DNA of 35,746 bases from a virus: IMG/VR virus record IMGVR_UViG_3300022744_000072, positions 1-35,746 of that record, one strand, 5' to 3'. The position numbers were made by a program, and so were the translations under genes. Below, piece after piece: positions 7,877 through 33,418 of the stretch. The notes under the pieces were generated by a model. That model ran no database searches. It was not told the origin of the DNA and saw only the letters and a list, made by a program, of their open reading frames with translations. The stretch's first letter is position 1. Each line of letters opens with the position of its first letter.

Positions 7877-7898
7877 CTGTGGCCTAGCTCGTCCAGTG
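7877..7898 (+). repeat. Intergenic 20-base repeat, copy 1
   Basis: This is the first of three copies of ctgtggcctagctcgtccag. It starts two bases after the stop codon of the winged-helix gene, and 25 bases separate its 20-base core from the portal GTG. Copies 1 and 2 agree over 22 bases. The spacer to the start codon has no Shine-Dalgarno sequence. The constant position points to a promoter, operator or RNA-level signal. Confidence 0.85.
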
Positions 7899-7921
7899 TC
7901 ATCGCGGCCAGACTGCCGCAC

Positions 7922-9589
7922 GTGTGGAAGCCGCTCGATGCTGTCGCGTCGCTATTTCGCTCCGGGCCTGACCGGCAGCCGAAGGCGTCCGAGATGCTGG
8001 GCGAGGTCGCGCGGCCTGGAATAACAGACCTGCGCAGCCCGTATCGCGAGAGCGTAAGCGACTGGCTCAAGCCTGCTGACCTTGCGCGGATCATGCGAGA
8101 CGCGATCAACGGAGACGCAGAGTCTTACCTCACGCTCGCTGAGGAAATGGAGGAGCGCGAGCCGCACTATCGGAGTGTTCTTGGCACGCGAAAGCTTGCT
8201 GTTTCTGGGCTTGAGATCAACGTCGAAGCGCCTACGGACAGCGCGCACGACAAAGCGATCGCCGACGACGTAGAAAAGCTGCTGCGCAGACCCGATGCCG
8301 AGGGGCTCGTTACCGACCTGATGGACGGCGTTTCGAAGGGGTTCGCGAACGTAGAGATCCTGTGGGAGCGCGATCTAAAGCGGTGGGAGCCTAGGTGCTA
8401 CGAGTGGCGCAGCCCGCGTCACTTCGTGTGGGACAAGCAGACGATCTCGGAGTGTCGGCTGCGCACGATGCGCGAGCCGATGAACGGCGAGGAACTCGCT
8501 CCGTACAAGTGGCTACAGCACCGCCCAAAGCTCGCCAGCGGCGTTCCGCTGCGCACTGGACTCGCGATGCCCGCGGCGGTCGCGTACATGGCCAAGCGCT
8601 ACACCGTGGCCGACTGGCTGACGTTTCTGGACGTCTATGGGATGCCGATCCGAGTCGGGAAGTTCCCCGCGTCGATGGCCAAGCAGAAAAAAGACCTTCT
8701 GCGCGCCGTCCAATCGCTCGGCACAGACGCAGCGGCGGTCATTCCAGAAGAGATGACGATCGAGCTTCTCGAGAGCTCGGGGCGCTCAGGCGGTCCGCTG
8801 TTCTGCGAGTCTGCAGAGTATTGGGACAAGCAGATAAGTAAGATCGTGCTCGGTCAGACGATGTCGAGCGACGATGGCGCATCGCTTGCGCAGAGTAAGA
8901 CGCACGAGCGCGTTCGATTCGATATTCGCGCCGCTGACGGGCGCCATGTGATGGCAACGATCACGCGTGATTTGATCGTACCATTCGTAATCCTCAACTA
9001 CGGGCCACAGGATCAGTATCCACGCGCTCTAGTAGACACTAAAGAACCCGAAGATGTTACGGCGCTACTGGCGAACGTAAAAATCTTCGTAGATCTTGGC
9101 GGCAAGGTGCAAATGTCAGAGGTGCGCGATCGCATGGGCCTGTCCGAGCCCGAGGAAGGCGCGGAGCTGCTCCAACCGAGCGCGAAGATCGTGGCGGACG
9201 CAGCGCCTGAGCCCGATCCGGCCACGAATGTGCCCAAGCCTGACACAGGCGCCGCCCGAGGAAAGGTGAGCGCGCGTACACAGTTAGCGAGGGTCCTGGA
9301 CGCGCTTAGCGCGTTTGGGCCACGGCCTGCACAGGTCGTTTCGGATGTGCTGGACGAGCTCACGGACGAAGACCTCGCGGACTGGCAGCCGCTGCTGGAC
9401 GGCACGGTGGGCGAGCTACTCGCTAGGATCCAAGCCGCGGAGAGCTTCTCGGAAGCAGCCGATATCGTCGAGCGCCTAGCGAACGACAAGGGCGTGGTCC
9501 TCGATTTGAGCTCGTTCACAGCTGCGCTTTCGCGCTCAACGTTCCGGGCTCGGGGAATCGGAGACGCGACGGACGAGGTGAGCCTGTGA
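7922..9589 (+). CDS. Portal protein (Mu gp29-like, DUF935)
   Basis: The portal is the twelve-part ring at the head vertex through which DNA enters and leaves. The 555-residue product follows the DUF935 family: SDWLKPADLARIMRDAINGD near the N-terminus, EEREPHYRSVLGTRKLAVSG, then WRSPRHFVWD, then a conserved DWLTFLDVYGMPIRVGKF segment, and QISKIVLGQTMSSDDGASLA. The last 110 residues are an Ala/Glu-rich extension. The length is normal for the family. The start is GTG without a visible Shine-Dalgarno sequence, preceded by the 20-base repeat. Its 3' end overlaps the next gene (GTGA). Confidence 0.92.
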   Translation: MWKPLDAVASLFRSGPDRQPKASEMLGEVARPGITDLRSPYRESVSDWLKPADLARIMRDAINGDAESYLTLAEEMEEREPHYRSVLGTRKLAVSGLEINVEAPTDSAHDKAIADDVEKLLRRPDAEGLVTDLMDGVSKGFANVEILWERDLKRWEPRCYEWRSPRHFVWDKQTISECRLRTMREPMNGEELAPYKWLQHRPKLASGVPLRTGLAMPAAVAYMAKRYTVADWLTFLDVYGMPIRVGKFPASMAKQKKDLLRAVQSLGTDAAAVIPEEMTIELLESSGRSGGPLFCESAEYWDKQISKIVLGQTMSSDDGASLAQSKTHERVRFDIRAADGRHVMATITRDLIVPFVILNYGPQDQYPRALVDTKEPEDVTALLANVKIFVDLGGKVQMSEVRDRMGLSEPEEGAELLQPSAKIVADAAPEPDPATNVPKPDTGAARGKVSARTQLARVLDALSAFGPRPAQVVSDVLDELTDEDLADWQPLLDGTVGELLARIQAAESFSEAADIVERLANDKGVVLDLSSFTAALSRSTFRARGIGDATDEVSL

Positions 9590-9960
9590 GAGTCGGGACC
9601 GCCGGAAAGCGTGTCGACCTACTGATCCGTCAGGGTGCGACGTTCGCGATCGAACTCCGCGCCGTCACTCCTGCAGGTGAGCCGAAGCCGATCGCCGGGT
9701 ACACCGTAAGGTCACAGATTCGAAAGATGCCGAGCTCGCCGGTTAGTGTCGCGAGCCTTTCGGCAATAGTAACGAATGCCCCAGGCGGGGTATTTACGCT
9801 GTACATGACGGCTGCGCAGACTGCCGCGTTAGTGGCGGGGGAGACTGCGGACAGCGCGGCATCTCGCTACGCGTGGGACGTGGAGATCGAGAGCCCCTCC
9901 GGGTTCGTCTCTCCTGTCGCATGGGGGACCGTGCAGGTGCATCCGGAAGTAACTCGCTAG
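9586..9960 (+). CDS. Phage beta-sandwich structural protein, unknown role
   Basis: The 124-residue product looks all-beta: LLIRQGATFAIELRAV, then GYTVRSQIRKMP, then GVFTLYMTAAQTAAL, YAWDVEIESPSG, and GTVQVHPEVTR at the end. This layout, RQG.tf ... G.tv..qiR ... f.l.m....t.al ... Y.w.vei....g, is common in small virion proteins found next to fibre genes and resembles the N-terminal domain of baseplate upper proteins. It overlaps the portal stop and precedes the fibre genes, so a fibre or decoration role is likely. Confidence 0.55.
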   Translation: MRVGTAGKRVDLLIRQGATFAIELRAVTPAGEPKPIAGYTVRSQIRKMPSSPVSVASLSAIVTNAPGGVFTLYMTAAQTAALVAGETADSAASRYAWDVEIESPSGFVSPVAWGTVQVHPEVTR

Positions 9961-10011
9961 CGACTAGCTATGCGTTGGTTGTGTGAAATGAATGGTGGGG
10001 AGTATTAGAAG

Positions 10012-10470
10012 ATGGCCGGCAAGTCGAACGTTCTCGAAAATGACATTCTCGCGTTCCTTCTGAATGGGACCGCCCTTCCCGCGATTTCAGGCGCGGTCGG
10101 CTATCCCGCGGGCGGTGGCAACTTCTACGTCGCTCTGCACACCGCGGATCCCTTCGCGGCGAATGAGGACGCTGGCGCGACTACGAGCGAGGCGAACTAC
10201 ACCGGCTATGCTCGGCAGCCTGTGGCGCGCAGCTCGGGCGGCTTCACGGTCTCCGCTTCGGGCGGTGTGACCAGCGCAAAGAACACTGCGGCGATCAACT
10301 TTCCCGCGTGCACTGCGGGCAGCAACACGATCACGCACTTCAGCGTGGTCAATACCGCCTCCGGCGCTGGCGCGATCCTCTACTCCGGCGCGCTTTCTGC
10401 GTCGCTCGCAGTGTCGAGCGGCATCACGCCGCAGTTCGCTGCTCAGGCTCTCGTGATCACCGAGGACTGA
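10012..10470 (+). CDS. Putative tail fibre protein
   Basis: The 152-residue product matches a frequent phage family annotated as tail fibre protein: SNVLENDILAFLLNGTA at the N-terminus, FYVALHTADPF, YTGYARQPVARS, then ITHFSVVNTASGAGAILYSG and a terminal QALVITED. It is all-beta and probably trimeric. A 51-base gap with a purine-rich site (ggtgggga) precedes the ATG. It is the first of three consecutive adhesion genes placed between the portal and the head-morphogenesis gene. Confidence 0.7.
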   Translation: MAGKSNVLENDILAFLLNGTALPAISGAVGYPAGGGNFYVALHTADPFAANEDAGATTSEANYTGYARQPVARSSGGFTVSASGGVTSAKNTAAINFPACTAGSNTITHFSVVNTASGAGAILYSGALSASLAVSSGITPQFAAQALVITED

Positions 10471-10520
10471 GCTCCGGTCTCGCAAGCGCAGTAGTCAGAG
10501 CGAAGCACTGAGGGGGACCT

Positions 10521-11297
10521 GTGGCGATTACGACCGTGGACGGCTGGCTCGCGTCCGCAAAGCAGTATTACGCAGTTTCTAAGTCGTCTTTCACGACGGT
10601 CGCAGCGCTGCAATATTCGCTCTGGCAGGCTGCTGGCGTTCCGGCTGCCGGCGCTGCCCCCGGAGCGGCTGCCATTCCGACAAAGGCCACGCAGGGGGCG
10701 GTGCTGTTCAACAACCCGACCGCCCCAGCGCTGTCTTACCTTGGCCGTGTAGACGCAATGAGCAGCGCGGCCGGTCTGCTGATCCTTTACGATCGCGTCG
10801 CGCATATGGGCGGGCTCAACGGCACGCTTACGACGGCGCAAGCGGTCAACACGCCGACTCCAGACCGCGGCAACGTGAGCGGCCTGGGGACAGAGGCGTT
10901 TCTGGAGTGGTACACGACAACCGGAACCACCGCGACCACTGCGACAGTCGCCTGGACTGACGACACGGGTACGGCGAGATCGTCTGCGATCTCTATAGCC
11001 GCGTCCATGGCTGCGAACCGCATGGTGCAGATCCCCATGGTAGCGACAGCCGCAGGCGTAAGGTCCGTGCAGACGGTCACCCTTAGCGCGAGCACGCTTA
11101 CCGCGGGAAACTTCGGTGTCACGATCTGCAATCGACTGGCATCCGTGCCGATCCTCGCGAACACGCCCATTTCGCTAGACCCTTTTGCGCTGGGTCTGAG
11201 CAGGGTTCCGGACAACGCGTGCCTTTTCTTTGCTGTGATTCCGAACGCCACAGCAAGCGGCGCGCTCTCCACGTCCATCATGATCGGCCAGGGCTGA
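10521..11297 (+). CDS. Putative virion structural (fibre-associated) protein
   Basis: The 258-residue product starts at GTG with a good site (gaggggga) upstream. It begins MAITTVDGWLASAKQYYAVS, then has YLGRVDAMSSAAGLLILYDR, which matches a family of phage structural proteins usually placed near fibre or capsid genes. The middle is rich in Thr/Ala and beta strands (FLEWYTTTGTTATTATVAW). It ends with FFAVIPNATASGALSTSIMI. No enzymatic motif is visible. The exact role is unknown; a minor capsid or fibre-associated protein is most likely. Confidence 0.6.
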   Translation: MAITTVDGWLASAKQYYAVSKSSFTTVAALQYSLWQAAGVPAAGAAPGAAAIPTKATQGAVLFNNPTAPALSYLGRVDAMSSAAGLLILYDRVAHMGGLNGTLTTAQAVNTPTPDRGNVSGLGTEAFLEWYTTTGTTATTATVAWTDDTGTARSSAISIAASMAANRMVQIPMVATAAGVRSVQTVTLSASTLTAGNFGVTICNRLASVPILANTPISLDPFALGLSRVPDNACLFFAVIPNATASGALSTSIMIGQG

Positions 11298-11301
11298 TCC
11301 A

Positions 11302-14300
11302 GTGCGCCGCGGCATAGCTGTACAGCTCGCGTACGGCTCAGGCCGCGGGCTTCTCGTGTCTGACTCCGGATCGCTGGCGCTTACCAACGATTTGATCGCA
11401 GACACGAACACGTCCGCGATCTCGTCTGCAGTGGGCGGCGCTGTGCTGGTCGACATGATCAGCAACCCAAGCCCGCGCAACATCGGCGCGGCTCCGCCAG
11501 CGATGCTAACGGGCGCGTTCGCGTTTACTTGGACGCCTTCCGTTGCGGACTCGGCGCTCGCAGATAACGACTACGTGCTCGTGAACTGGGGCCGGTCAAC
11601 GACCAGCCTCTATGTGCAGCGCGCAGGCGTGACCAACCTGGTCATTTACGACGACACGACTGGAGCCATCGCGTTTGCCTATGGCGTTTCGTTTGCTGCT
11701 GGTGTCACGGTCTCGATCTCGGTAGACCTCGCTGCGCTCACGATTTCGCTATCTGGGTTCACGGCTGGAAACGGAACGTATGCGATAGCCGCAGGTTTCA
11801 GCCCTGCCGATGGCGATGGGACGATCGACGTAGGACGCTACTTTGACGGTGCGTATCAGTCGGGCGGAACTTACGGAAACTTCACGGCAGGCGGAAGCAC
11901 AGGCGTCGGAGGAACGTCGAGCGCAGCGGGCACGCTGTCCAGTGCTGCGGCGGCCTCGACGATCGATGGATCCGCGTCCGGCCTCGCGTCCGGCAGTGCG
12001 TCTCTCTCCGCGCTTGGCACCCTCTCCGGCTCCGTAGCAGGCACGAGCTCTCCGTCCGGCGCTGCAGGCGCTCTCGCCTCTGCCAGCGGCTCCACGGGCG
12101 GCGTAGGTGCTGCAGCGGGCACGCTCGCTGCGTCTGCCCTGCTCTCTGCGACGTCACGAGGTAGAGCGCTCGGGCGCGAGCCGCGTTCTGCGTTCATTTA
12201 CTCTTACCCGCTCCCCGGCGGAATGCGGGACGCGTACGATCGGATCATCGTCGAGCCAGGCCACCCGCACACGGTCGCGGGAACCGGCGCGGAGCTGGTC
12301 GCCTACCTGTCTGTCGGCGAGGTCTCGGACACGAGCCCGGACGTCGGCAACATGCTTCCGGCGTGGATAATCGGCCGAAATGAAGGCTGGGGCTCGTCCA
12401 TCATGGACTTGTCCAGCGCTGCGTATCGTGCAGATCTCGTGGGACGCAGAGCCGCGGCGCTGTACGCGCTCGGCTATCGCTCTCTGTTCCTTGACGTCCT
12501 CGATTCGTTCCAGCTCGTGATCCTTGATGAGCCTGGACGCGCATTGCAGCGCGCTGGGCTCGTGGCTGTGATCCAGGCGCTTCGCGCGACGTTTCCCACG
12601 ATCCTAATCAATCGCGGGTTTGACGTCGTTGCGTACGTTGCTCCGTACGTTCAGGGAATGGTCGCGGAATCGTTGTTCCGCACGTACACGAGCGGCGCCT
12701 ACGCAGCGAGCACGCAGAACGACAAAGATTGGTTACTGCCGAAGCTGCTGAGTGCGCGCGACACGTACGGATTGCCCGTCACGGTGATCGACTACGTTGC
12801 GCCAGGTGATACGGCCACCGCGCAAGGCGCGATCGATTCGATCACGGCGCTCGGGTTCACCGCGTACGTGTCAGACGTCGCGCTTTCGACTGCCGGACTG
12901 GGCGGGATCGGCGCGCTCAGTATTCCGGGCACTGGCACAACGGCTTCGGCATCCGGTGCGCTGTCCGGCTCGAGCTCTGCGGCATCGTCGGCGAGCTCGA
13001 CAGCATCGGCTGCTGGGGCTCTTTCCGCGAGCGCGCTAGGCACGAGCTCTGCGACTGCTTCCACTTCCTCCGCAGGCTCGCTCGCTGCGACGTCTGCGGG
13101 CACGTCTGCGGCGTCTTCCGTGGCAACCGGGCGCGGCTCGCTCAGTGGGTCGGCGGCTGGCTCTGCGGCGCCTTCGGCAGCGGTCACAGCGCGTGGCGAC
13201 CTTGCCGGATCCGTGGCCGCGACGGGCGCGGCAAGCGCCGCGGTGTTCGCGCGCGCAGCGCTGGCCGGCGCGATCGCCGGTGCGGCTTCGGCTTCGGCAG
13301 CGGTCACAGCGCGTGGCGCGCTGTCAGGATCGTCTGGCGCTGTTGCCTCTGCGTCCGCATCACTGCTCGCACCCGGAACGCTCGCCGGACAAGCGCAAGG
13401 CGCCTCGCTGCTCACTGTGAGCGCGCTTGAATCTGGGATCCCGTTTCCTCCGCCGCACGCGCTTTCCGCCGAATATCGCAGCGTATGGCGCCAAGACTTC
13501 ACCACGCTGTCTGCGCTGTCTGTGTCCGCGAACGGACCTTGCGGAAACGGCGCTGGACTGACGACGTGGATGGCCCATAAGCCAGGCTACGGCGAATGGT
13601 TCCTTTTCAACGATCCATCGGAAAACCTCCACCCGTTCTCTCTTGATGGCCACGAGCTCACGATCCGCGTCCAGAAAGACGGCGCGCTTGCGGCGTACGG
13701 CGGATACACCGGCGGTCTGCTTTCGTCTGCAGATCATCATGGCGACGGTTTCACGCAGAAATACGGCTACTTCGAAGCCTGTATGCGCGTTCCAGGGGGG
13801 GCGAATACGTGGCCGTCCTTCTGGCTTCTCGGCGTCGAAAACATGGCCGTTCCAGGAACGCCTATTGCGGAGCTCGACGTCACAGAGCTCTACGGAAACG
13901 CCGGAGCTGGGCCAGGTTTCTCGCCTCCGGGAAACCCGAGCATTTCGATCAGCACGTGGCACAAGTGGTCAACTCCGCACGAGTTCGATCAGCACATTGT
14001 CGACGCGTCGCTTCCACCGTTTTCCACGGATCTATCGGCCGGATTCCACACTTTCGGCGTCGACGTTGGACCCACGGAAATCAAGTGGTACCTGGACCGT
14101 CAACTCTACTGGACGACGCCGGCATATCCCGAGTCGCGGCGTCCGCTTGCGGTGTTGCTCAATCTCGCGCTTGGAGGTGGCAATTACACCAACGCAACGA
14201 ATGACGGTTACGACTGGTCTCTCACTCCAGACCCGACCGATCTCAAAGTAAAGTACGTCGCCGTTTGGGCGAGTCCTGACAGCCCGAACTACACAGACGT

Positions 14301-17118
14301 TCGCACGGCTGGCGCGACTGGCGTAGGCCGCGCTACGGCATCGCTGTTTGCTGACGCATCGGTGTCTGGCTCGTCTGGCGCTTCATCTCTCGCGCGCCTG
14401 TACGTCACCGATGCTTCGTACGTCTACGATGACGGCGGCGCGCTGGTCTACGATGACAACGGCGAGCCTGTCACGATCGGTGTGACCACGGGTGCGCTGG
14501 CGTCGTCGTCCGCCGGAACGTCGCTCGCGCTCGCATCTGCGAGCGGGTCCGCTTCCCTTTCAGGTGCGTCGGGAGGCGTTGCGCTGGCGCTCGCCGTGGT
14601 CTCCGCCCGCGGAGACTTGGCCGCAACATCCGTGGCGACGGGCGCGGCATCCTCCCAGATGGCCGCATCTGGGGCGCTTTCCGCGGCCAGCGGCGCAGCG
14701 TCCACGGCTACCGCTGTGGCGACTGGGCGCGGCGCGCTCGCTGCGACACTCGGAGCGGCCGGAGCTGCGTCGGCTCTGCTGTCCGCGGTCGGTGCGCTCG
14801 CAGTGTCTGCGCTTGCCGGAACCGCGTCTGCGTCTGGCTCGCTGGTCGCGCGTGGCGCACTCGCGGGCACTTCCGGCGCGACGTCAGGCGCGTCCGCTGT
14901 CGGGTTTGCGCAGGCCACGGGCGGCGCCCTGGCCTCCGGCACGAGCGCTGCGTCCGCCACGATCTTCGCGCTATCCGCCGGCACGTGCTCTGCGTCCGGC
15001 ATCGCATCGGCAGCGGCCACGCTCGTAGGTCTGCGTGCGGCGTCGGGCTCGTCTGCCGGAGCGGCTAGTAGCAGCGGCGCTTCGCTCGCGGGCGCAGGCT
15101 TGCTCGGCGGTAGCGCGCTTGCGCTCGCCGGTTCGAGCGCAAGCCTTGGCGCTTCGGGCGCGTTGGCCGCATCTGCCGCAGGATCCGCGTCCGCATCTGC
15201 GTCTGCAGGGTTGTCTGGTGCGCTAGCGTGTGTCTCTGCCGGCATTGCATCTGCGTCCGCGAGCATGACGGCGCGCGGCGCACTGCTCGGGTCTGTCAGT
15301 GGTTCGAGTTCTGCACAGGTCGCTTCCGGATCTTCGATCGGAACGCTTGCGACGGGCGCAGGTTCCACGATCCTGCTCGACCTCGCCACGAATCCCGCGC
15401 CGCATCACTTCGCGGTGTGTCCTCCCGCGATTCTCTCGGGGCGCTGGTCGTTCACGTGGACGCCTGCAGTTGCGGATACAGCGCTCGCGCCAAACGATTA
15501 CGTGCTCGTCTCGTGGGGACCGTCAGACACGAGTCTCTACGTCCAGCGCAGCGCGGTCACGAACCTCGGCCTGTACGATCAGACGACGGGCACATGGGCA
15601 TGGGTTACTGGCGTAAGCTTCTCCGCTGGACAGCCCGTCACGATCGCGACGGACACGCAGGCGCAGCAGGTCACGCTATCTGGCTTCGCGTCGGGGAATG
15701 GCACGTACGCAACGACCGCGTTTTCACCTGCCGATGGCGATGGATCGGTCGACGTCGGCCAGTATTTCGACGGCAACTACGCGAGCGGCGGAACGTTCTC
15801 GAACTTCACTGCGCCGGGCTACGGCGTCGGTGGGACGAGCGCGGTCACTGGTACGCTCACGGTTGGCGCTCAGGTCGTACTGATTGCCGGCAACGCGTCC
15901 GGCATGGGTTACGCGACTGCGGCGCCAGCGCTCACGATGGCCGGCTATCTGGTCGGCACGTCGAGCGCATATGGCCGCGGTGAAGAGTCTGTAACCCTGA
16001 GTGGGCTCGGGGCGCTGGCTGCTGCTGCGTCTGGCACGGGCACGGCGCAGGCAACCGGGATCGCACTGCAGACCGGAGGCGCTCTCGCGGTAGGCACGTC
16101 GAGCGCTTTCGCGGCCATCGGCGCGCGCGTGGAGATTTCGGCTGCTGCGTCTGGCACGAGCGCTGCGTCCGCGCTGATTCTCGCTCAGATCGCGGTATAC
16201 GGCGCAGCTGCCGGAAGCGCGGCCGTGCCTGCTAGCCTGTACGGTCTGGGCTCGCTAGCGGGCGTTCTCGCGTCGCAGTCTGGCGCCACTGCGTCCCCGA
16301 GCGCGCGCGGGCAGCTCGCCGGCACGTCCGCTGGCGGAGGCCTCGCTATCGCGGCCACTGGTGGGTCTGTGCCTGGCGTGGGCACGGTTGCCGGCATGAG
16401 CTCCGCCGCTGCCGCGCTGGTCGGCTCCGGCGATCTCGTGTCGGTGGTCGCAGGCTCGAGCTCTGCGTCTGTCGCCGGTAGCGGCGCTGTGCCGGCGCAG
16501 GGGGCCGTCTCGGGCACGGGCGCGGCCTCTGCGTCGGTCTCTGGCCGCGGGGCGCTCCTGGCCAGCGTGGGAGGCGCTGGCGACGCATCGCTCGCCGGCA
16601 CGGTTGGAGTCGTGGTCTCTGGCGCCGCTGGCGCGAGCTCCGCTGCGTCCGGCGTGATCGTCGGTGTGGGCGCTGTCGCCGGAGCCGCACGAGGCAAGGC
16701 GCTGGCACTGGCCGCGACGCTGGGGGGTGTCGCCGGAGCTGTCGAGATCGCGGGATCCGCCGGCGCATCTGGCGAGCTCTCGGCACTGGCCGATCTCTCG
16801 GGTGAGATCTCGGGCGCCTCCGTGGCGCATGCGTCCGGCGCTTCCGCGGCACTGGCGACGTCGACGGCTTCGGGCAGCGCGTCAGCGATCGCTGAGTTGA
16901 TCGCGCTCGGTGGCGTCGCTGCCGCGGCGCACGGCACAGGGGCTGCGGCTGCCACCGCGCAAGGATCGTTCGAAGCGTCCGGTTTGTCGTCCGCTCACGC
17001 AGTGGCGTGGCTCGAGACACCGCCCGGTGAGCTCTCGTGGGTTCCTGTGTCGATCGAGATCTCGCCAGAGACGATACAGGCAGGCGATTTTGTGATCGCA
17101 GATGAGTTTGCGATCTGA
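11302..17118 (+). CDS. Giant fibre protein with GH114-like and GH16 polysaccharide hydrolase domains
   Basis: This 1938-residue protein is built from alternating modules. Residues about 46-197 and 1354-1505 are two copies of one beta-rich module (each with DYVLV.WG...TSLYVQR and FSPADGDG). Residues about 297-535 resemble GH114, with VAYLSVGEVSD and FLDVLDSFQ. Residues about 720-996 are a GH16 domain with the catalytic ELDVTE at 857-862 (Glu857, Asp859, Glu862). The linkers are Ala/Ser/Gly-rich; one is an exact series of 20-residue repeats (552-709). The whole suggests a tail spike or fibre that cuts host exopolysaccharide. The start GTG has only a weak ribosome site. No frameshift is visible, and the final 30 residues form a non-repetitive tail. 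Confidence 0.8.
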   Translation: MRRGIAVQLAYGSGRGLLVSDSGSLALTNDLIADTNTSAISSAVGGAVLVDMISNPSPRNIGAAPPAMLTGAFAFTWTPSVADSALADNDYVLVNWGRSTTSLYVQRAGVTNLVIYDDTTGAIAFAYGVSFAAGVTVSISVDLAALTISLSGFTAGNGTYAIAAGFSPADGDGTIDVGRYFDGAYQSGGTYGNFTAGGSTGVGGTSSAAGTLSSAAAASTIDGSASGLASGSASLSALGTLSGSVAGTSSPSGAAGALASASGSTGGVGAAAGTLAASALLSATSRGRALGREPRSAFIYSYPLPGGMRDAYDRIIVEPGHPHTVAGTGAELVAYLSVGEVSDTSPDVGNMLPAWIIGRNEGWGSSIMDLSSAAYRADLVGRRAAALYALGYRSLFLDVLDSFQLVILDEPGRALQRAGLVAVIQALRATFPTILINRGFDVVAYVAPYVQGMVAESLFRTYTSGAYAASTQNDKDWLLPKLLSARDTYGLPVTVIDYVAPGDTATAQGAIDSITALGFTAYVSDVALSTAGLGGIGALSIPGTGTTASASGALSGSSSAASSASSTASAAGALSASALGTSSATASTSSAGSLAATSAGTSAASSVATGRGSLSGSAAGSAAPSAAVTARGDLAGSVAATGAASAAVFARAALAGAIAGAASASAAVTARGALSGSSGAVASASASLLAPGTLAGQAQGASLLTVSALESGIPFPPPHALSAEYRSVWRQDFTTLSALSVSANGPCGNGAGLTTWMAHKPGYGEWFLFNDPSENLHPFSLDGHELTIRVQKDGALAAYGGYTGGLLSSADHHGDGFTQKYGYFEACMRVPGGANTWPSFWLLGVENMAVPGTPIAELDVTELYGNAGAGPGFSPPGNPSISISTWHKWSTPHEFDQHIVDASLPPFSTDLSAGFHTFGVDVGPTEIKWYLDRQLYWTTPAYPESRRPLAVLLNLALGGGNYTNATNDGYDWSLTPDPTDLKVKYVAVWASPDSPNYTDVRTAGATGVGRATASLFADASVSGSSGASSLARLYVTDASYVYDDGGALVYDDNGEPVTIGVTTGALASSSAGTSLALASASGSASLSGASGGVALALAVVSARGDLAATSVATGAASSQMAASGALSAASGAASTATAVATGRGALAATLGAAGAASALLSAVGALAVSALAGTASASGSLVARGALAGTSGATSGASAVGFAQATGGALASGTSAASATIFALSAGTCSASGIASAAATLVGLRAASGSSAGAASSSGASLAGAGLLGGSALALAGSSASLGASGALAASAAGSASASASAGLSGALACVSAGIASASASMTARGALLGSVSGSSSAQVASGSSIGTLATGAGSTILLDLATNPAPHHFAVCPPAILSGRWSFTWTPAVADTALAPNDYVLVSWGPSDTSLYVQRSAVTNLGLYDQTTGTWAWVTGVSFSAGQPVTIATDTQAQQVTLSGFASGNGTYATTAFSPADGDGSVDVGQYFDGNYASGGTFSNFTAPGYGVGGTSAVTGTLTVGAQVVLIAGNASGMGYATAAPALTMAGYLVGTSSAYGRGEESVTLSGLGALAAAASGTGTAQATGIALQTGGALAVGTSSAFAAIGARVEISAAASGTSAASALILAQIAVYGAAAGSAAVPASLYGLGSLAGVLASQSGATASPSARGQLAGTSAGGGLAIAATGGSVPGVGTVAGMSSAAAALVGSGDLVSVVAGSSSASVAGSGAVPAQGAVSGTGAASASVSGRGALLASVGGAGDASLAGTVGVVVSGAAGASSAASGVIVGVGAVAGAARGKALALAATLGGVAGAVEIAGSAGASGELSALADLSGEISGASVAHASGASAALATSTASGSASAIAELIALGGVAAAAHGTGAAAATAQGSFEASGLSSAHAVAWLETPPGELSWVPVSIEISPETIQAGDFVIADEFAI
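11437..11892 (+). repeat. Duplicated fibre module, N-terminal copy
   Basis: This codes about 152 residues that are repeated at 15361-15819. Shared landmarks include TWTP followed by ADSALADNDYVLVNWG, TSLYVQRAGVTNL, and FSPADGDGTIDVGRYFDG. The two copies differ at many positions, so the duplication is old. The fold is probably a lectin-like beta sandwich. Confidence 0.8.
12955..13428 (+). repeat. Tandem 20-residue (60-base) Ala/Ser/Gly repeats in the fibre
   Basis: Seven consecutive units of exactly 20 residues (60 bases) begin at 12955, each starting with G-x-L-[SA] (one unit starts with A), such as GALSGSSSAASSASSTASAA and GSLSGSAAGSAAPSAAVTAR. A partial eighth unit ends at 13428. A 27-base stretch at 13172-13198 recurs exactly at 13292-13318, two units later, which indicates recent unit exchange. 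Looser units of similar length follow in 14491-15335. Confidence 0.85.
15361..15819 (+). repeat. Duplicated fibre module, C-terminal copy
   Basis: This is the second copy of the module seen at 11437-11892, with TWTP, ADTALAPNDYVLVSWG, TSLYVQRSAVTNL and FSPADGDGSVDVGQYFDG. It is followed by the last Ala/Gly-rich stretch of the protein. The copy closes the span that contains both glycosidase domains. Confidence 0.8.
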
Positions 17119-17142
17119 AGGTTCAGACGTGGAGTTTTTCGG

Positions 17143-17991: not shown

Positions 17992-18000
17992 TGGGGAATC

Positions 18001-19650: not shown

Positions 19651-20303
19651 GCGTAGCTCCGGAAACGACCTTCACGGGCTGCCTGCGAGGCGCAGCGCGC
19701 GGCATCTACACCGGCCCGGTGCGTACCCTGGTCACCGCTTCGGGCGGCTTGCTGCGGCTCTCTCTGCGCCACCCGATTGCGACGCGTCGCGGATGGGTTG
19801 CCGCGGGCGATCTGAGCACTTCGGACGCTGCGCTCGTGCACGTGGGAGAGCTCGGGCTACCACGCGACCAGCTTCCGCCGTCCGGCGATGAGCTGTGGCG
19901 GACGTGGTCTCTCAGGCACGGCGGATCGTGGCGCTTGTTGGCGCCTAGGCGCGCCTTTCACGGCGAGGGGCGGCGCTTCTACGGGTCAATCGAAGTGGTC
20001 GGCTCCTATCGCCTGCTAGGCACCGCGCGCGTGCGGCACGAGGCGAGGAACTCGGGGGCTCCCGCCGTGGTCTGCTACTCGCGTGCTGTGGGGATGGCGC
20101 ACGTGGCATCGACTGCGATCCTCGCTGTGGGCGACGAGGGTTGGCCGGAGCTCGCGCCAACGCTAATGCGCGGGTCGGATGGGCGCTTCGCGCTGGATCC
20201 GATCGTAGCGATCTACGAGTCGCCTTACGTGGGTACGGTGTACGACGTCGAGGGTGACAGCGGTTGGTGTTGGGCATCTGGCTTCGCGCTGCGTGATTCC
20301 TGA
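19647..20303 (+). CDS. Free-standing Hint (intein-like) protein with almost no extein
   Basis: This 218-residue product aligns over its whole length with the intein of the preceding gene: SVAPETTFTG against CFLPGTVVTG, RHPIATRRGWVAAGDL against NHPILTSRGWVAAGSL, FHGEGRRFYGSIEVVGSY against FHGEASRFVGQVDVVGTY, and VYDVEGDSGW against VYDLETRSGW. It starts Met-Ser, so Ser2 stands at the Cys1 position, and it ends Asp-Ser, standing for Asn and Cys+1. The block B His is kept (His42). It is thus a complete Hint domain with one residue at each end outside it. Its antisense frame has stops (sense CTA at 19857, TCA at 19986, CTA at 20016, CTA at 20163), so no nuclease remains. GTG overlaps the previous stop. 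Confidence 0.8.
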   Translation: MSVAPETTFTGCLRGAARGIYTGPVRTLVTASGGLLRLSLRHPIATRRGWVAAGDLSTSDAALVHVGELGLPRDQLPPSGDELWRTWSLRHGGSWRLLAPRRAFHGEGRRFYGSIEVVGSYRLLGTARVRHEARNSGAPAVVCYSRAVGMAHVASTAILAVGDEGWPELAPTLMRGSDGRFALDPIVAIYESPYVGTVYDVEGDSGWCWASGFALRDS

Positions 20304-20306
20304 GAG

Positions 20307-20328
20307 CTGTGGCCTAGCTCGTCCAGTG
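20307..20328 (+). repeat. Intergenic 20-base repeat, copy 2
   Basis: This copy of ctgtggcctagctcgtccag starts three bases after the stop of the free-standing Hint gene. The protease/scaffold gene may start at ATG 20330, directly after the repeat, or at ATG 20354, which would give the same 24-27 base spacing as the other copies. No Shine-Dalgarno sequence is visible before either ATG. Confidence 0.85.
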
Positions 20329-20353
20329 CATGCCGGCGCAGGCTCTGCCCTGC

Positions 20354-21475
20354 ATGCCAGGAAAAGCCGAGCTGGTTGGAGTGTCAGGCGACGGGCGGGA
20401 TGTTGTCCGGCTGCTCTGCTCGCTTGGTTCCGGTGCCGATGGGACACCGCAGGAGTGGATCCATATCCTCCCTGGCGGTCCGATCGTGGTCGCGCGCGAC
20501 GAGCGCGTGTTCCAGGTCACTGACGCGGAGAGCGTACTCGCGGCTAGTGAGCTCCCGATGCTCGTGGATTGGGAGCACGAGTCCGAGAACCCTTGGGGTG
20601 GTTCCACACGTGCGGCTGGTTGGATTGAGGAGCTCTCCGCGTCAGACGGATCAGAGCGCGCGGCAGGTCTATGGGGGCGCGTTCGTTGGACCGGAAAAGG
20701 CGGGGAAGACGTCGCGCAGGGCGCGTATCGCTTCCTCTCTCCGGTCGTGGTGATCGATTCCGAGACGCGAGACGCACAGCAGATCGTGAGCGTCGCGCTT
20801 ACGAATCGCCCGGCTCTGCGCATGCAGGAAATCGGCAGGTTTCGCGAGCAAATGTCAGCTCGCATTGGCGTGGCGCTCGACGGTGAGCGCGCGCAAGCGC
20901 ACTCGAAAAGTGGTGAGGCAATGACCCCAGCTCAGAGAAAGGCGCTTTGCGCCGCGTTCTCGCTCGCGGAGACCGTGAGCGATGACGAGATCGTGGAAGC
21001 AGCCAAGAAGCACAGCGCCGCGCGCGTGTTGCTTGAGCAGACCACCGAGCAGTTTTCGTCAGCGAGCGCTTCGCTTGCGCAGGTAAACGCTCGCGTTGTG
21101 GAGCTCGAGACGCAGCTTTCCGAGGCTCGCAAGGCTGGCGAGGCTGCTCGGCTCGAGGCGGAGATCGCGGAGCTGTTCCAGGCGAACAAGAACCGGATCA
21201 CGCCTGCGATGGCCGAGGGCTTCCGCAAGATGTTCGCGAAGTCGCCCGAGACGCTTGAGGCGTTCAAGGAGTTCACGCTCCCGAACCTTCCCGAGATCGG
21301 CGCACCCGCTCCGGCTTCGATTCCTGCGACTGCCCCGAGTTCGGCGAGTTCGGTTGCCGAGCGCGATCGCCTCGCTCTGCGTCAGCGCGGGATGACCGAC
21401 GCGCAGATCGAAGCGGCAGAGAAATACCAGGCTGAGGTCCGCGCTCGTCGCGCTCTCGGCGGAGAGGTGGACTGA
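20354..21475 (+). CDS. Mu gpI-like head protease/scaffold
   Basis: gpI-type proteins mature the prohead and carry the scaffold in the C-terminal half. The product has the family landmarks EWIHILPGGPI, then LPMLVDWEHESENPWGGSTR and AAGWIEEL, then YRFLSPVVVIDSETR and VSVALTNRPALRM. After a linker the C-terminal part (from about MTPAQRKALC, 20921) is a coiled coil (LAQVNARVVELETQLSEARK), as in scaffold Z, and an internal start there could give a separate scaffold protein. I prefer ATG 20354 (373 residues) because it places the repeat at its usual distance; ATG 20330 adds eight residues. Confidence 0.88.
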   Translation: MPGKAELVGVSGDGRDVVRLLCSLGSGADGTPQEWIHILPGGPIVVARDERVFQVTDAESVLAASELPMLVDWEHESENPWGGSTRAAGWIEELSASDGSERAAGLWGRVRWTGKGGEDVAQGAYRFLSPVVVIDSETRDAQQIVSVALTNRPALRMQEIGRFREQMSARIGVALDGERAQAHSKSGEAMTPAQRKALCAAFSLAETVSDDEIVEAAKKHSAARVLLEQTTEQFSSASASLAQVNARVVELETQLSEARKAGEAARLEAEIAELFQANKNRITPAMAEGFRKMFAKSPETLEAFKEFTLPNLPEIGAPAPASIPATAPSSASSVAERDRLALRQRGMTDAQIEAAEKYQAEVRARRALGGEVD

Positions 21476-21477
21476 CC

Positions 21478-21891: not shown

Positions 21892-21936
21892 CCGGCAAGC
21901 AACATCTAACCCCTGTTTTTCAAGGACAAGTAAGCT

Positions 21937-22908: not shown

Positions 22909-22910
22909 TC

Positions 22911-23192: not shown

Positions 23193-23205
23193 GGGGGATT
23201 GTCAG

Positions 23206-24652: not shown

Positions 24653-24840
24653 GTCAGGCTAACAGAATGTATGTGAAGCCGCGCGATGGGCTCGTGATTC
24701 GAGACCCGTTCAGCAAGGCAGTGATTCCACCCGAGGGAATGGAATGCGTGGCCTACGGGTCGCACCTTACCGTGTTGCGCAAGCACATTGCGGTGGGTGA
24801 CCTGATCGAGATCCCCCAGCTCGCTCACGTGGAGGACTGA
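24649..24840 (+). CDS. Mu gp38-like small protein (DUF2635)
   Basis: This 63-residue product matches the DUF2635 pattern: MYVKPRDGLVIRDPFSKAVI then PPEGMEC, and a C-terminal HIAVGDLIE. It is always found just before the tail sheath gene in Mu-like phages, as here. Its function is unknown. ATG overlaps the gp37 stop. Confidence 0.88.
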   Translation: MSQANRMYVKPRDGLVIRDPFSKAVIPPEGMECVAYGSHLTVLRKHIAVGDLIEIPQLAHVED

Positions 24841-24843
24841 GAA

Positions 24844-26298: not shown

Positions 26299-26311
26299 GG
26301 GGTAAGGTTCA

Positions 26312-26662
26312 ATGCAACAGACTGGCAAAGTAACGGTCAAGGTCAACGGTAGCTCGCTGCGTAGCAAGACTGGCTCGGGATCGATGATTCCGGGTGGACT
26401 CACGCGCGAAGACAACTCAATGACTGATCAAGGCGTGTTCATGTACAAGGAAAAGTACGAACCCGGCGAGATCAAGTGCGTCGTCATGCACTGCGCAGAC
26501 ACTGACGTGCGCGGCATGCAGGACAGTAAGGAAGTGACGGTCTCGTTCGAGGCTGACACCGGCGCTGTCTACACCATGGCGAACGCCGTCTGCACGAAGG
26601 TCGGTGAGACGAAGGATGGCGAGGTCGAGGTCACGTTCCGCGGCGATCCGATCAAGTCGTGA
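26312..26662 (+). CDS. Tail tube protein (Mu gpM-like)
   Basis: The 116-residue product matches the phage tail tube family: VTVKVNGSSLRSKTGSGSM, a loop with DNSMTDQGVFMYKEKYEPGE, then strands EIKCVVMHCADTD and KEVTVSFEADTGAVYTMANA, and a final GEVEVTFRGDP. This makes the inner tube inside the sheath. The ATG follows the sheath gene after 13 bases with a gaggggtaagg site. Confidence 0.92.
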   Translation: MQQTGKVTVKVNGSSLRSKTGSGSMIPGGLTREDNSMTDQGVFMYKEKYEPGEIKCVVMHCADTDVRGMQDSKEVTVSFEADTGAVYTMANAVCTKVGETKDGEVEVTFRGDPIKS

Positions 26663-26773
26663 TGACCCCTGGGGCGCGCTTGCCCGTCCCTGTGCGCGGG
26701 TTTCTACTCCTTTCCCTGCGTGCAAAAGCTTCGTCTCGTGCTGTTGCGCGGGGTGATACAGGCAGCACTTTTT

Positions 26774-26789
26774 GCACCTTGGGGGGTGC
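26774..26789 (+). promoter_or_regulatory. Hairpin covering the chaperone gene's ribosome binding site
   Basis: The 133-base gap 26663-26795 is the longest gene-free stretch of the window. At its end GCACC (26774-26778) can pair with GGTGC (26785-26789), which would hide the ggggggtg ribosome binding site of the chaperone gene. AGCAC at 26764-26768 could pair with the same partner instead. This looks like a translational control point. The rest of the gap shows only a weak G/C hairpin near 26685-26702 and no promoter I can support. Confidence 0.35.
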
Positions 26790-26795
26790 TTCGAA

Positions 26796-27122
26796 ATGGA
26801 CAAGACAAAGACTGAGTTCCTTCCTCCGTCGTCTGCTGACGGCGCAACGATCGTGGTTCTCCGCTCGCCGGTGAAGTGGCGCGGAGAGGAGACCGAGCGT
26901 GTGACGATCCCGGCACTCAAGGGCCGGCATCTCGCGCGGATCCCGTTCACAGTGGGCGACGTCCCGACGCTTGGCGCGCTGGTCGAGTGGGCGAGCGCGA
27001 TCGTGCTTCCCGCTGGGATCGTGGACGAGCTCCACCCTTCCGACGCGATCGCGATCGCGAACGAGGTGTACGCAGCGCTGGGAAAATCCCTGGCGATTGG
27101 GGAGACGCAATCGCAATCCTAG
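26796..27122 (+). CDS. Tail assembly chaperone (Mu gp41-like), short form
   Basis: The short product of 108 residues matches the gp41 tail assembly family: VVLRSPVKWRGEETERVTIP, then LKGRHLARIP and FTVGDVPTLGALVEW. It helps wrap the tape measure before the tube forms. ATG 26796 has ggggggtg seven bases upstream. The gene is read to 27122, but ribosomes that slip at 27080-27086 make a longer form. Two products in fixed ratio are usual for this step in tailed phages. Confidence 0.88.
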   Translation: MDKTKTEFLPPSSADGATIVVLRSPVKWRGEETERVTIPALKGRHLARIPFTVGDVPTLGALVEWASAIVLPAGIVDELHPSDAIAIANEVYAALGKSLAIGETQSQS

Positions 27123-27223
27123 GCGGGCATTTCGGTTGGAGTTACTCCGACCTGATGGACTTGCCGATCATGGATCTGCGGTGGTGGATGGAGCGCGTTG
27201 CTAACGCTCGGGGTGCACGGTGA
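26796..27223 (+). CDS. Tail assembly chaperone, -1 frameshifted long form
   Basis: After 97 codons in the first frame, a -1 slip continues at 27086 and reads 45 more codons to the stop at 27221-27223, for a product of about 142 residues. The added part (AIAILGGHFGWSYSDLMDLP then IMDLRWWMERVANA) is a proper protein sequence resembling the T part of lambda G-T and the E' part of P2, and it has no start codon of its own. The stop overlaps the GTG of the tape measure gene (GTGA). Confidence 0.82.
27080..27086 (+). other. Programmed -1 frameshift site, G GGA AAA
   Basis: The heptamer g-gga-aaa lies in the chaperone frame as CTG GGA AAA, the X XXY YYZ form; lambda G-T uses G GGA AAG. It is followed within 36 bases by the zero-frame stop, and the -1 frame is a real coding sequence. 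No strong downstream pseudoknot is obvious to the eye. Confidence 0.85.
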
Positions 27224-30057: not shown

Positions 30058-31691
30058 TGAGCTGGCATGAGCGACTGTCAAAGGCCTCATTCAAGGGCGT
30101 CACGCTGTATGTGGATGCGACGCAGTACGCCAAGGGGCGACGCGTTCCAGTCCGAAAACTCGCCGGGCAAGACGATTTCATTCCGCAGGATCTTGGTCGC
30201 GATCCAGACGAAGTGGAGATCACCTGCTTCTATTGGGGCAAGGCGTTCGACCAAGAGCGCGATGCGCTTGAGGCGAAGCTAGTCGAAGAAGGCGCGGGGC
30301 CGCTCGTTCTGCCTACACGCGGAGAGCTGCAAGCGCGCGTGGTTTCCGGGCCCCGCACTACGGAATCGCGCGATGGGCTCGGCTTCTGTTCGATCCGCTT
30401 TTCGGTTGTGATCGAGCCGCGCAAGGGCGCTGGCGCGAGCGCTGCGCCTGGGCTCACTGCTGCAAAAAACACGAGCTCCGCGCTAAAAAAGAGCGCGGCC
30501 AAAGCACAGAGTGTTGCGGCTGCGTCGACTGCGGCGCGCGCGAAAGTAGCGAAGCTGCCGAACAAGCAGACGGTCTCAGTCCTGGCGAGCATACAAGGCG
30601 TCGTGAGCAAGGCGCGCAGCGTTCAGCGCGCGATCCAGTCACAGCTAAATGCGGTCGAAGACGTGAGTGCGGCGATCAACGAACTCGACAGTACCGCAAA
30701 CACGATCCTGGCGACGCCGAGCGCGATCGCGACCAAGATCGCCGCGGTGGTGCTCGGCGTGGTCGGCATCGCTGACACGGTAGAGCGCGCGATTGATCGC
30801 ACCACCGGGCTTGTCCTCGGAGACGAGAACGCGACCCCATTCGAAAGTGCATCGCCAGCGCGCGCGACGATCGCGGCCGTGAAGTCGTTCGCACTGCTCG
30901 GCACCGGCGAAACCACGTCTGCGGGCCGCAGTGTTGGCCCTACTTCTTCGGCGTCCGGAGCTTCTACGCGCGTTGACTCGGCCAGTGTGCGGACCGTTGC
31001 GACGCAGGCTAGCGCGAGCTCAGCTGCGTCTAGTGGTGGCGCCCCGGCATCTTCGGCCGCTTCGTCGGTTGCGCCTTCGACCGACGCGGACGTGTCCGCG
31101 GACGCGTCCACGGAGCTCGCCACAGACGATCGCGAGGAGCTCGTTATCCGCGCGATCTACGAAGGAGCGCGCGCGTTGGCCGTCTCGCGCGCGTGCGAGA
31201 CCTTCGCCACGTGTACGTTTGACTCTTCCGCGTTGGCGCTGTCTGCGCTCGAGGTAGCCGGACACGCGATTGACGACCTGATCGTGTTCGGCGGATCCGA
31301 TGCGCTCGCCGATGCGCTGGCTGACGTGCGTGCAGCTCTCGCGGATCATCTCCTTTACGTAGCTACGCAGCTTCCCGCGACCACGGTACGCGAGCCTATC
31401 GGGATCGTGACCGGCGTGGACGAGAGGCGCGCGGCTGCCTCCGCAAAGGCATCTGCGGCCGTTCTCGGGGAGTCGGCCGACCCGATCGACACGCAGACCA
31501 GCCGCAAGGCGAAGGCGCGCACAAAAGGCCTTCCGCGCGTGCTGTCGTACACGCCAGCGGCTGAGGTCCCGGCGCTCCTGATCGCACAAGAGATCTACGG
31601 AGACGCAGACCTCGAACGCGATCTCATCGCGCGCAACCGAATCAGGCACCCGCTGTTCGTTTCTCAGCCGATCGAGATCATCGAACCGTGA
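30057..31691 (+). CDS. Mu gpN-like protein (DNA circularisation N-terminal domain)
   Basis: The N-terminal 125 residues match the DNA_circ_N family: SWHERLSKASFKGVTLYVDA, then GRDPDEVEITCFYWG, and LPTRGELQARVVSGPR. In Mu this protein is part of the tail/baseplate hub and travels with the DNA. An Ala/Ser/Thr-rich disordered linker (about 285-355) and a helical part follow. The end has a LysM-like segment (AQEIYGDADLERDLIARNRI). ATG overlaps the tape measure stop (TAATG), so it is translationally coupled. Confidence 0.88.
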   Translation: MSWHERLSKASFKGVTLYVDATQYAKGRRVPVRKLAGQDDFIPQDLGRDPDEVEITCFYWGKAFDQERDALEAKLVEEGAGPLVLPTRGELQARVVSGPRTTESRDGLGFCSIRFSVVIEPRKGAGASAAPGLTAAKNTSSALKKSAAKAQSVAAASTAARAKVAKLPNKQTVSVLASIQGVVSKARSVQRAIQSQLNAVEDVSAAINELDSTANTILATPSAIATKIAAVVLGVVGIADTVERAIDRTTGLVLGDENATPFESASPARATIAAVKSFALLGTGETTSAGRSVGPTSSASGASTRVDSASVRTVATQASASSAASSGGAPASSAASSVAPSTDADVSADASTELATDDREELVIRAIYEGARALAVSRACETFATCTFDSSALALSALEVAGHAIDDLIVFGGSDALADALADVRAALADHLLYVATQLPATTVREPIGIVTGVDERRAAASAKASAAVLGESADPIDTQTSRKAKARTKGLPRVLSYTPAAEVPALLIAQEIYGDADLERDLIARNRIRHPLFVSQPIEIIEP

Positions 31692-32752
31692 GCGACATTC
31701 CCGAGCCAAAGATCAAGCTCACGGTGAACGGGAAGGACTTCACCGGGTTTGAGGGCGGATCCGTTCTCCTGACCATGGAGGACGCGACGAACAGCTTCGA
31801 TCTCGAATACGTGGCAGACGGCAAGCGGCCAGGTGCGCGCGGCATCTTCTGCGGAGACGAGTGTGAGCTTTCGATCGACGCCGGAAAGGGCTTTGAGTCG
31901 CTGATCAAGGGATTTGTCGATACGACCGACGACGAAGACGACGCGAGCGCGATCAGGCTTCGCTGCGCCGGCCGATCGAAGACGGCGGATCTTGTGGATT
32001 GCAGCGCGATCACGAAGCCTGGAAGCTGGAAAAAGGCCGGCCTCGCGAAGATCGCGAACGACATTGCCAAGCCCTTTGGCGTGCGCGTGACCATCGACGG
32101 GAGCGCTGGCGGACCCTTCGAAAACTTCAGCGTCACGAAGGGGGAGACTCCCTACGAGGCGATCCAGCGCGCGGCCACGAAGCGCGGACTTTACGTCTTC
32201 TCGGTGGGCGATGGACTCGTGATCGCGAAGGCAGGATCCAAGAGCTCGGGCGCTGTCTTGGAGCGCGGAAAAAACATCCTCGTGCGATCCTCGCGCACTG
32301 ATTCGTGGTACTCGCGTTTCAGCGAATACATCTACCGCGGCCAGGTGCGAGGCACCGATTCTGCGCCTGGAAAAAAGGCATCGCAGAACAAGGCGAGCGT
32401 GAAGGATGCCACGATCAACCGATATCGCCCGCTTCTTCTGCAGTCGTACGGATCTGCCGATGAGCTCAAGCTTCGCGCTGAGGTGGAGAGAAACCAGCGA
32501 GCTGGGAGAGGCGAGGTTGTGACGGCGCTTGTTGATGGTTGGGGAACTCCTTCTGGAAAGCTGTGGAGGCCAAACACAACCGTGCACTTTGCAAACTCGG
32601 TGCTCGGGGTAGACGGTGAGCTCCTGATCGTCACTGCAAACTTCAGATTCGGGCCTGACGTATCGCGAGAGACTGAGCTGCGTCTGATGAAGAAAGAGGC
32701 GTTCGACGTCGCGGTTTTCCCGAAGCGCAAGCGAGGAGCCAAGATCACATGA
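31688..32752 (+). CDS. Baseplate hub protein (Mu gpP/gp44-like)
   Basis: The 354-residue product matches Mu gp44: KIKLTVNGKDFTGFEGGSVL, then FDLEYVADG and GDECELSIDAGKGFESLIKG, then the conserved LRCAGRSKTADLVDCSAI, the region ETPYEAIQRAATKRGLYVFS, and SWYSRFSEYIYRGQVRG. It forms the trimeric hub of the baseplate, like gene D of P2 and gp27 of T4. GTG overlaps the gpN stop. Confidence 0.9.
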   Translation: MSDIPEPKIKLTVNGKDFTGFEGGSVLLTMEDATNSFDLEYVADGKRPGARGIFCGDECELSIDAGKGFESLIKGFVDTTDDEDDASAIRLRCAGRSKTADLVDCSAITKPGSWKKAGLAKIANDIAKPFGVRVTIDGSAGGPFENFSVTKGETPYEAIQRAATKRGLYVFSVGDGLVIAKAGSKSSGAVLERGKNILVRSSRTDSWYSRFSEYIYRGQVRGTDSAPGKKASQNKASVKDATINRYRPLLLQSYGSADELKLRAEVERNQRAGRGEVVTALVDGWGTPSGKLWRPNTTVHFANSVLGVDGELLIVTANFRFGPDVSRETELRLMKKEAFDVAVFPKRKRGAKIT

Positions 32753-33369
32753 TCGGCCTGGACGCACTCCACAAGCTCATCACGCGAACGCAGCAGCGCG
32801 TGCAATCGCTCGTTACGCGCGCCGTGCTGACGCGCGTGGACGATTCGAAGAAGATTCAGCGAGTTCAGATCCAGCTACTGGCGGACGAAGAAGAGGACGA
32901 CGTGGAGCACTTCCAGCCTTCTGGCTGGTCTTTCGTGCCCGAGTCCGGCGCTGAGTGCCTCGCGTTTGCGGTGGGCGGAGACCGCGCGCACACCGTTGTT
33001 TTGGGCGTCAACGATGGCTCGAAGCGCCCGAAAGGAACCGCTCCGGGAACGGGTGGGTGCTACCAAAAAGGCGAGTGGCGGATCTACGTCGACAGCTCCG
33101 GAGTGGTGCACGTTGGCGCGAAATCGGGCGCGCAACCTGTGGCCCTTGCGGATGACGTCAAAGAGCAGTTCGACAAGATTCGAAAGCAGATCGATCAACT
33201 CTCGAACGTCTTTCAGACCTTTGCGAGCACGCACCAACACCAGGTTGCCACTGCCGGATCTCCCGCTGCACAGACGGGAATGGCATTCCCAGCGACACCG
33301 CCACCCCAGCCACTGACGCCGCTTGGCCCCGCTACTCCCGTCGCAGCGAAGAAGGCGAAGGCTACGTAA
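32749..33369 (+). CDS. Baseplate spike protein (Mu gp45-like)
   Basis: The 206-residue product has the gp45 pattern: a short helix, VLTRVDDSKKIQRVQIQLLA then VEHFQPSGWSFVPESGAECL (the OB-fold), then RAHTVVLGVNDGSKRPKG and a beta-helix-like part. It forms the membrane-piercing needle. The C-terminus is Pro/Thr-rich (ATPPPQPLTPLGPATPV). It ends just before the third 20-base repeat. Confidence 0.9.
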   Translation: MIGLDALHKLITRTQQRVQSLVTRAVLTRVDDSKKIQRVQIQLLADEEEDDVEHFQPSGWSFVPESGAECLAFAVGGDRAHTVVLGVNDGSKRPKGTAPGTGGCYQKGEWRIYVDSSGVVHVGAKSGAQPVALADDVKEQFDKIRKQIDQLSNVFQTFASTHQHQVATAGSPAAQTGMAFPATPPPQPLTPLGPATPVAAKKAKAT

Positions 33370-33374
33370 AGCGG

Positions 33375-33396
33375 CTGTGGCCTAGCTCGTCCAGCG
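33375..33396 (+). repeat. Intergenic 20-base repeat, copy 3
   Basis: This is the third exact copy of ctgtggcctagctcgtccag, starting five bases after the gp45-like stop, with 24 bases between it and the GTG of the gp46-like gene. After the core, copies 1 and 3 also share tcgcggc and the ccgcacGTG that includes the start codon. There is no Shine-Dalgarno sequence in the spacer. Confidence 0.85.
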
Positions 33397-33418
33397 AGTT
33401 TCGCGGCATGGTCCGCAC

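Follow-up and report, generated by a model that had tools for sequence, protein, structure and literature searches.

Three exact copies of a 20-bp element in a Mu-like phage fragment are very probably the operator parts of three activator-dependent late promoters, with transcripts predicted to start 0–3 nt upstream of the start codon of the following gene. This reading is supported by the phasing of the element with a -10-like hexamer, by its position and by the different elements found in related phages at the same junctions. The sequence analyzed (the window), 35,746 bases long, is a linear fragment from IMG/VR. Its gene set is that of a Mu-like head and tail, and comprises TerS, a ParB-like protein, TerL, portal, gpF, protease, major capsid, sheath, tube, tape measure, N, P, gp45, gp46, gp47 and fibre.

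The Repeated Element of the Window

The 20-mer CTGTGGCCTAGCTCGTCCAG occurs at 7877–7896, 20307–20326 and 33375–33394, always on the + strand and with 0 mismatches over the whole window, exactly as the first-pass annotation had described it. Allowing up to 3 mismatches revealed no fourth copy in the window (0 in 100 shuffles), where the next-best match reaches 14 of 20 positions. Copies 1, 2 and 3 begin 2, 3 and 5 nt past the stop codons at 7874, 20303 and 33369, and end 25, 27 and 24 nt upstream of the following start, provided that the gene after copy 2 starts at ATG 20354. The spacing reported earlier (2–5 bases after a stop, 24–27 before a start) thus holds with this start. By our gene calls, intergenic sequence amounts to about 455 of the 35,746 nt, and the copies occupy 3 of the 7 window gaps of at least 45 nt, these three measuring 47–50 nt.

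The exact 20-mer was absent from all other IMG/VR contigs and from the GTDB genomes, and its 15-mer core gave 16 single, chance-like matches in IMG/VR. The sequence of the element is therefore private to the window phage; its arrangement is common to other Mu-like phages. The element can be read as a dyad with half-sites TGGcCtAG and CTcGtCCA, in which 6 of 8 positions pair, a score equalled by 7% of random 20-mers of the window. This weak dyad gains weight because the relatives described below show dyads with an equal architecture.

Each copy is followed by a predicted -10 hexamer whose first base lies 21.5 nt past the dyad centre. For copy 1 (centre 7887.5), the hexamer CAGACT (7909–7914, + strand) begins at -13 relative to the GTG start of the portal gene (7922–9589, phrog_113, E 7e-127). 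For copy 2 (centre 20317.5), CAGGCT (20339–20344) begins at -15 relative to ATG 20354 of the head maturation protease/scaffold gene, the Mu gene I homologue (20354–21475, phrog_328, E 2e-43); this start was reassigned by phasing and is the better one because it is in register with copies 1 and 3. For copy 3 (centre 33385.5), CATGGT (33407–33412) begins at -12 relative to the GTG start of the gp46 baseplate wedge gene (33419–33853, phrog_180, E 8e-31). All three hexamers carry C, not T, at position 1. A scan for sigma-70 promoters and terminators around copy 1 found nothing.

Also, an inverted repeat of 4–5 bp with a 6-nt loop lies just upstream of each of the three start codons. It surrounds the hexamer at copy 1 (GCGGC-CAGACT-GCCGC, 7904–7919) and at copy 3 (GCGG-CATGGT-CCGC, 33403–33416), in both cases 2 nt upstream of the start codon. 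At copy 2 (GCAGG-CTCTGC-CCTGC, 20338–20353) it abuts ATG 20354 and the hexamer overlaps its left arm. A comparable repeat, with any loop of 5–9 nt, was present at 4 of the 37 other starts of the window. The three genes had been said to lack Shine-Dalgarno sites, and this was borne out by weak anti-SD pairing (-1.7, -3.4 and -3.9 kcal/mol, against -5 to -11 for most other genes), an equally weak pairing being shared by a few further genes of the window. Thus the window combines a YANNNT hexamer about 12 nt upstream of the start with the lack of a Shine-Dalgarno sequence, as leaderless promoters do.

From this geometry we infer promoter function and leaderless starts. A dimeric activator, coded by the phage or by its host, would bind the near-palindrome of roughly 16–20 bp and would replace the -35 element (centre about -33.5). 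The host RNA polymerase would then use the weak, GC-rich -10 hexamer CANNNT located 21.5 nt downstream, with a transcript that would begin at most 3 nt before the start codon. Portal, protease and gp46 would then be the first genes of leaderless or near-leaderless late mRNAs, which would better explain their missing Shine-Dalgarno sites. The three promoters would split the head-tail region into blocks, each boosted separately, like PI and PP in Mu.

Elements of Closely Related Phages

Since a search with the single protease sequence gave no relatives, a protease alignment was used, and this search retrieved the closer relatives L137, L138 and L140. In L138, the 22-mer CGCCACGTTGCTCGCGTGGCGG occurs exactly twice, upstream of the protease and upstream of gp46, where it begins 2 nt past the gp45 stop. 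These junctions are those of window copies 2 and 3. L137 holds exactly two copies of the 24-mer GATACACGTGGCCTACGTGTATCG, one upstream of TerL and the other upstream of the protease, and close variants of the L138 element precede the protease in L006 and L140. Within the closest portal relatives (L004–L006), no repeat was found, each fragment holding only one candidate site. The search for further copies suggested in the first-pass annotation thus gave no exact copy in the two databases and revealed instead the own elements of relatives at equivalent junctions. The division of the late genes into blocks proposed there appears reasonable, with the element of L138 at 2 of the 3 same junctions and that of L137 at 1 of 3.

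When the window copies are included, the dyad centre lies 33–36.5 nt upstream of the start codon in 10 of 10 sites of this clade. A YANNNT hexamer begins 21.0–21.5 nt past the centre in 7 of the 10 (the three window copies, both L138 sites, the L137 protease and L006), for 0.29 expected and with 0 of 5000 shuffles reaching 7. The centres were set by eye, which favours agreement, and the hexamer distance was measured afterwards; these counts, as well as those of the wider set below, come from related phages that are not independent. The hexamer is imperfect at the three other sites (L137 TerL, L140 and L004), and the inverted repeat at the start codon is less regular in the rest of the clade than in the window. 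The start codon floats 12–15 nt past the beginning of the hexamer, and a hexamer phased to the dyad with a floating start codon is what a promoter with a 0–3 nt leader is expected to show, and a translation signal is not.

This phasing also bears on the alternative explanations. The elements could be repressor or "stoperator"-like sites, with a phage repressor bound at several gaps and silencing late transcription in the lysogen. Asymmetric sites in a single orientation within short gaps would fit such a role, and an operator placed over the -35 region might just as well repress transcription. However, the fixed distance of 21 nt to the -10-like hexamer, the fixed distance to the start codon and the presence of the element at the heads of blocks only make repression very unlikely. 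The precedent of Mu, whose late promoters lys, I and P are activated through C, is likewise one of activation (PMC4461284).

An RNA-level signal was also proposed in the first-pass annotation, next to a late promoter or activator site. The element would act as a processing site, a translational enhancer or a ribosome-recruiting leader replacing the Shine-Dalgarno sequence, in line with the three genes without such a sequence, the constant distance from element to start and the small inverted repeat directly upstream of the start codon. Against this, the hexamer keeps its phase with the dyad while the start codon shifts by 3–4 nt, and the element sequences found at one junction are wholly different between phages. 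The three window sites were also examined for an unusually stable or conserved RNA fold and fold in an ordinary way (z -0.23, -0.61 and -0.95). We thus retain the late promoter or activator site from the earlier interpretation and consider RNA processing or Shine-Dalgarno replacement as highly improbable.

Least likely of all is a boundary sequence for module exchange or a scar of recently copied gene cassettes: the copies do stand at block borders, and copy 1 follows two genes (7199–7420 and 7422–7874) that are missing between TerL and portal in L004–L006, but identity among the copies ends sharply at about 20 nt, and relatives keep the junctions and the phasing with different sequences, a phasing that recombination sites would not need.

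The Protease Junction in Other Mu-Like Phages

A wider set of loci, about 80 Mu-like loci fetched by portal, 21 from bacterial genomes and 48 by protease alignment, was examined for what precedes the head protease, the gene after window copy 2. Many of these phages possess their own repeat of 14–25 bp upstream of the protease (Mu gene I) and of another late block. A clear repeat between gaps (score of at least 12) was detected in 25 of 70 testable loci, and the protease gap belonged to the top pair in 19 of these 25, for 6.1 expected. L012 also has a protease-gap repeat once its start is placed correctly. The repeats of L081, L128 and L130, which may be terminator hairpins, were left aside. 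The partner copy is located 6.6–9.4 kb upstream. In L078 it lies directly after a gene for a Mor/C-type late activator and upstream of a lysis-type gene, and three related contigs (G005, G015 and G017) have one more copy, their third, shortly before gene P.

The best dyad centre falls exactly 44.5 nt upstream of the protease ATG in 21 of 49 unique phages, and 18 dyads at this distance have a score of at least 6, vs. 0.34 expected from shuffles. The site of the window clade is about one helical turn (~10 nt) nearer the start than this class. In 28 of 50 other Mu-like phages, a YANNNT hexamer precedes the protease start at exactly -12 (0.75 expected; maximum of 5 in 2000 shuffles). None of the 158 control starts from these loci, which belong to portal, gpF, major capsid and further late genes, has it there. 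A Shine-Dalgarno-like sequence accompanies most of the control starts, gpF being the exception. A short inverted repeat ending 0–3 nt upstream of the protease ATG was present in 21 of 48 cases, for 5.1 expected. If the Mor-like geometry is valid, transcription would start at the ATG or 1 nt from it, and these late mRNAs would have no leader.

The cultured phage D3112 (L136, NC_005178) belongs to the same pattern, with two copies of CGTTGAACCCCTTCC and the late-promoter signature at 10697–10749 and 19741–19793. The hexamers CAGGAT and CACCAT stand at -12 of ATG 10749 and ATG 19793, respectively, and both ATGs lie 44.5 nt from the centre. The starts predicted in this way, 10749 and 19793, both precede the annotated ones, which are 11041 for orf20 and 19918 for the protease gene orf33. 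Read from 19793, the frame stops after 57 aa, which suggests a frameshift in the record.

Comparison with Known Systems

The closest precedent is phage Mu. In the Mu promoter Pm, the site of the Mor dimer, an inverted repeat of 16 bp with its centre at -43.5, takes the place of the -35 element (PMC4390567). Like the window sites, Pm and the Mu promoters Plys, PI and PP combine a dyad site in place of the -35 element with a weak -10, and there are several copies per late region. One C-dependent promoter of Mu lies exactly upstream of gene I, as copy 2 does, and the window shares with Mu the trait of sites that head late blocks including this gene (copy 2, rank test). Also, the places of the repeats in the wider set (lysis-type gene, protease, upstream of P) are those of Mu lys, I and P (PMC4461284). 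In contrast, window copies 1 and 3 precede portal and gp46, whereas the other Mu promoters precede lys and P. The window is predicted to be leaderless, and the annotated lys and I starts of Mu are without the arrangement of a -12 hexamer and a hairpin. Thus, the element would function in the manner of a Mu late promoter, while differing in two of the traits that we tested. Its dyad centre lies about 10 nt nearer the start codon than the -43.5 of the Mor site would place it, and the Mor/C gene of the Mu family was not found in the window clade.

Promoters in which the -10 region is adjacent to the ORF, with Deinococcus-Thermus as an example (PMC12340547), resemble the window sites by a TANNNT-type hexamer about 12 nt upstream of the start codon and by the lack of a Shine-Dalgarno sequence. 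Unlike in these, the hexamer of the window goes with a dyad operator specific to the phage and occurs at the heads of late blocks only. Mycobacteriophages have short oriented repeats in the gaps upstream of genes, known as start-associated sequences and stoperators. The window element differs from these in lying ~25 nt from the start codon, in not being Shine-Dalgarno-like and in being phased to a -10 hexamer.

A Candidate Activator

No Mor/C-family activator gene (PF08765) was detected in the window, which is a fragment, nor in six clade records (L137–L140, L004 and L006), most of which are fragments, while L138 looks complete; in the wider set, 18 of 26 records possess a member of this family. 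L138 is a contig of 46,141 bases with homologues of the orf23810/gp37 region at both ends. The two ends seem to join inside the gp37 region, which implies a circular or permuted genome, and L138 may be a phage with a Mu-like virion that is not transposable. The helix-turn-helix candidates of L138 are a Cro/cI-type protein and a weak RHH protein, with no obvious late activator among them.

A reasonable candidate reader of the window element is the OmpR/PhoB-type winged-helix protein encoded at 7422–7874 (+ strand), 150 aa long and without receiver domain, whose gene ends 2 nt upstream of copy 1. It matches Trans_reg_C (PF00486) with an E of 2.2e-6 and 28.0 bits (cut-off 26.2), and MtrA (2gwr) with an E of 2.7e-5. 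Its single-sequence structure prediction had a pLDDT of 49 and was not used. No homologue was found in IMG/VR, and the phage collection gave one weak match.

In class II promoters of the PhoB/OmpR type, the activator site overlaps the -35 region close to the -10. The position of the window element over the -35 region, together with a receiver-less protein of this type coded beside copy 1, resembles this arrangement, and the winged-helix gene takes the place that the activator gene has by the first late site in L078. OmpR-type proteins prefer 11-bp direct repeats, and another Mu-like phage, L067, possesses both an OmpR-type winged-helix gene (PF00486; 2006–2413) and the repeat TGCCGGTCGCGGAGCGGTCGG at 2806 and 10521, in which an 11-bp direct repeat CGGTCG-N5-CGGTCG is found. 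The symmetry of the window element, however, is dyad-like and not that of direct-repeat sites. It showed no tandem direct half-sites with a 10–11 bp period (3 of 10 and 3 of 9 matches, 61% of random 20-mers being as good), and L137 and L138 share the promoter architecture and have no PF00486 protein. PhoB-like binding of the winged-helix protein to the element over the -35 region is thus possible but doubtful.

Implications for Mu-Like Phages

Taken jointly, these data outline a clade with Mu-like heads and tails whose phages would drive their structural blocks from leaderless late promoters, with a dyad operator at -33.5, one helical turn nearer than in Mor/C phages, and with an activator outside the Mor/C family. 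On a wider scale, a usual design in Mu-like phages, Mu itself excepted, would be the leaderless late operon whose -10 hexamer lies within an inverted repeat abutting the start codon. We regard this joint proposal as about equally likely to hold or to fail. Our searches of the open-licence literature gave no account of late promoters of the leaderless type in Mu-like phages.

The sites offer testable late transcription starts, at the level of the base, for a large and mostly unstudied phage group. They suggest that translation of the capsid protease, the lysis operon and further block heads proceeds from leaderless mRNAs, and late virion production may then depend on leaderless initiation. The signature also allows gene starts to be corrected, as for the window protease (ATG 20354) and the annotated starts of D3112 orf20 and orf33. 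Finally, a private operator with its own activator in each phage would constitute a set of orthogonal switches.

Other Genes of the Window

Together with copy 1, the segment 7199–7874, which holds the two genes between TerL and portal, resembles an inserted cassette that would bring a promoter of its own to the portal operon. A protein of 71 aa encoded at 3398–3613 contains an Acb2/Tad1 hairpin domain (PF24729, E 1e-12) and is a possible anti-CBASS/anti-Thoeris sponge in the packaging region. The large terminase (4497–7202, 901 aa) matches terminase families, with additional matches of its N-terminal part to families of DNA primase (phrog_510) and helicase loader (phrog_50). Between the head genes, a fibre-like gene (11302–17118) encodes 1938 aa, of which the first 766 are without PHROG match, and contains many degenerate GC-rich repeats.
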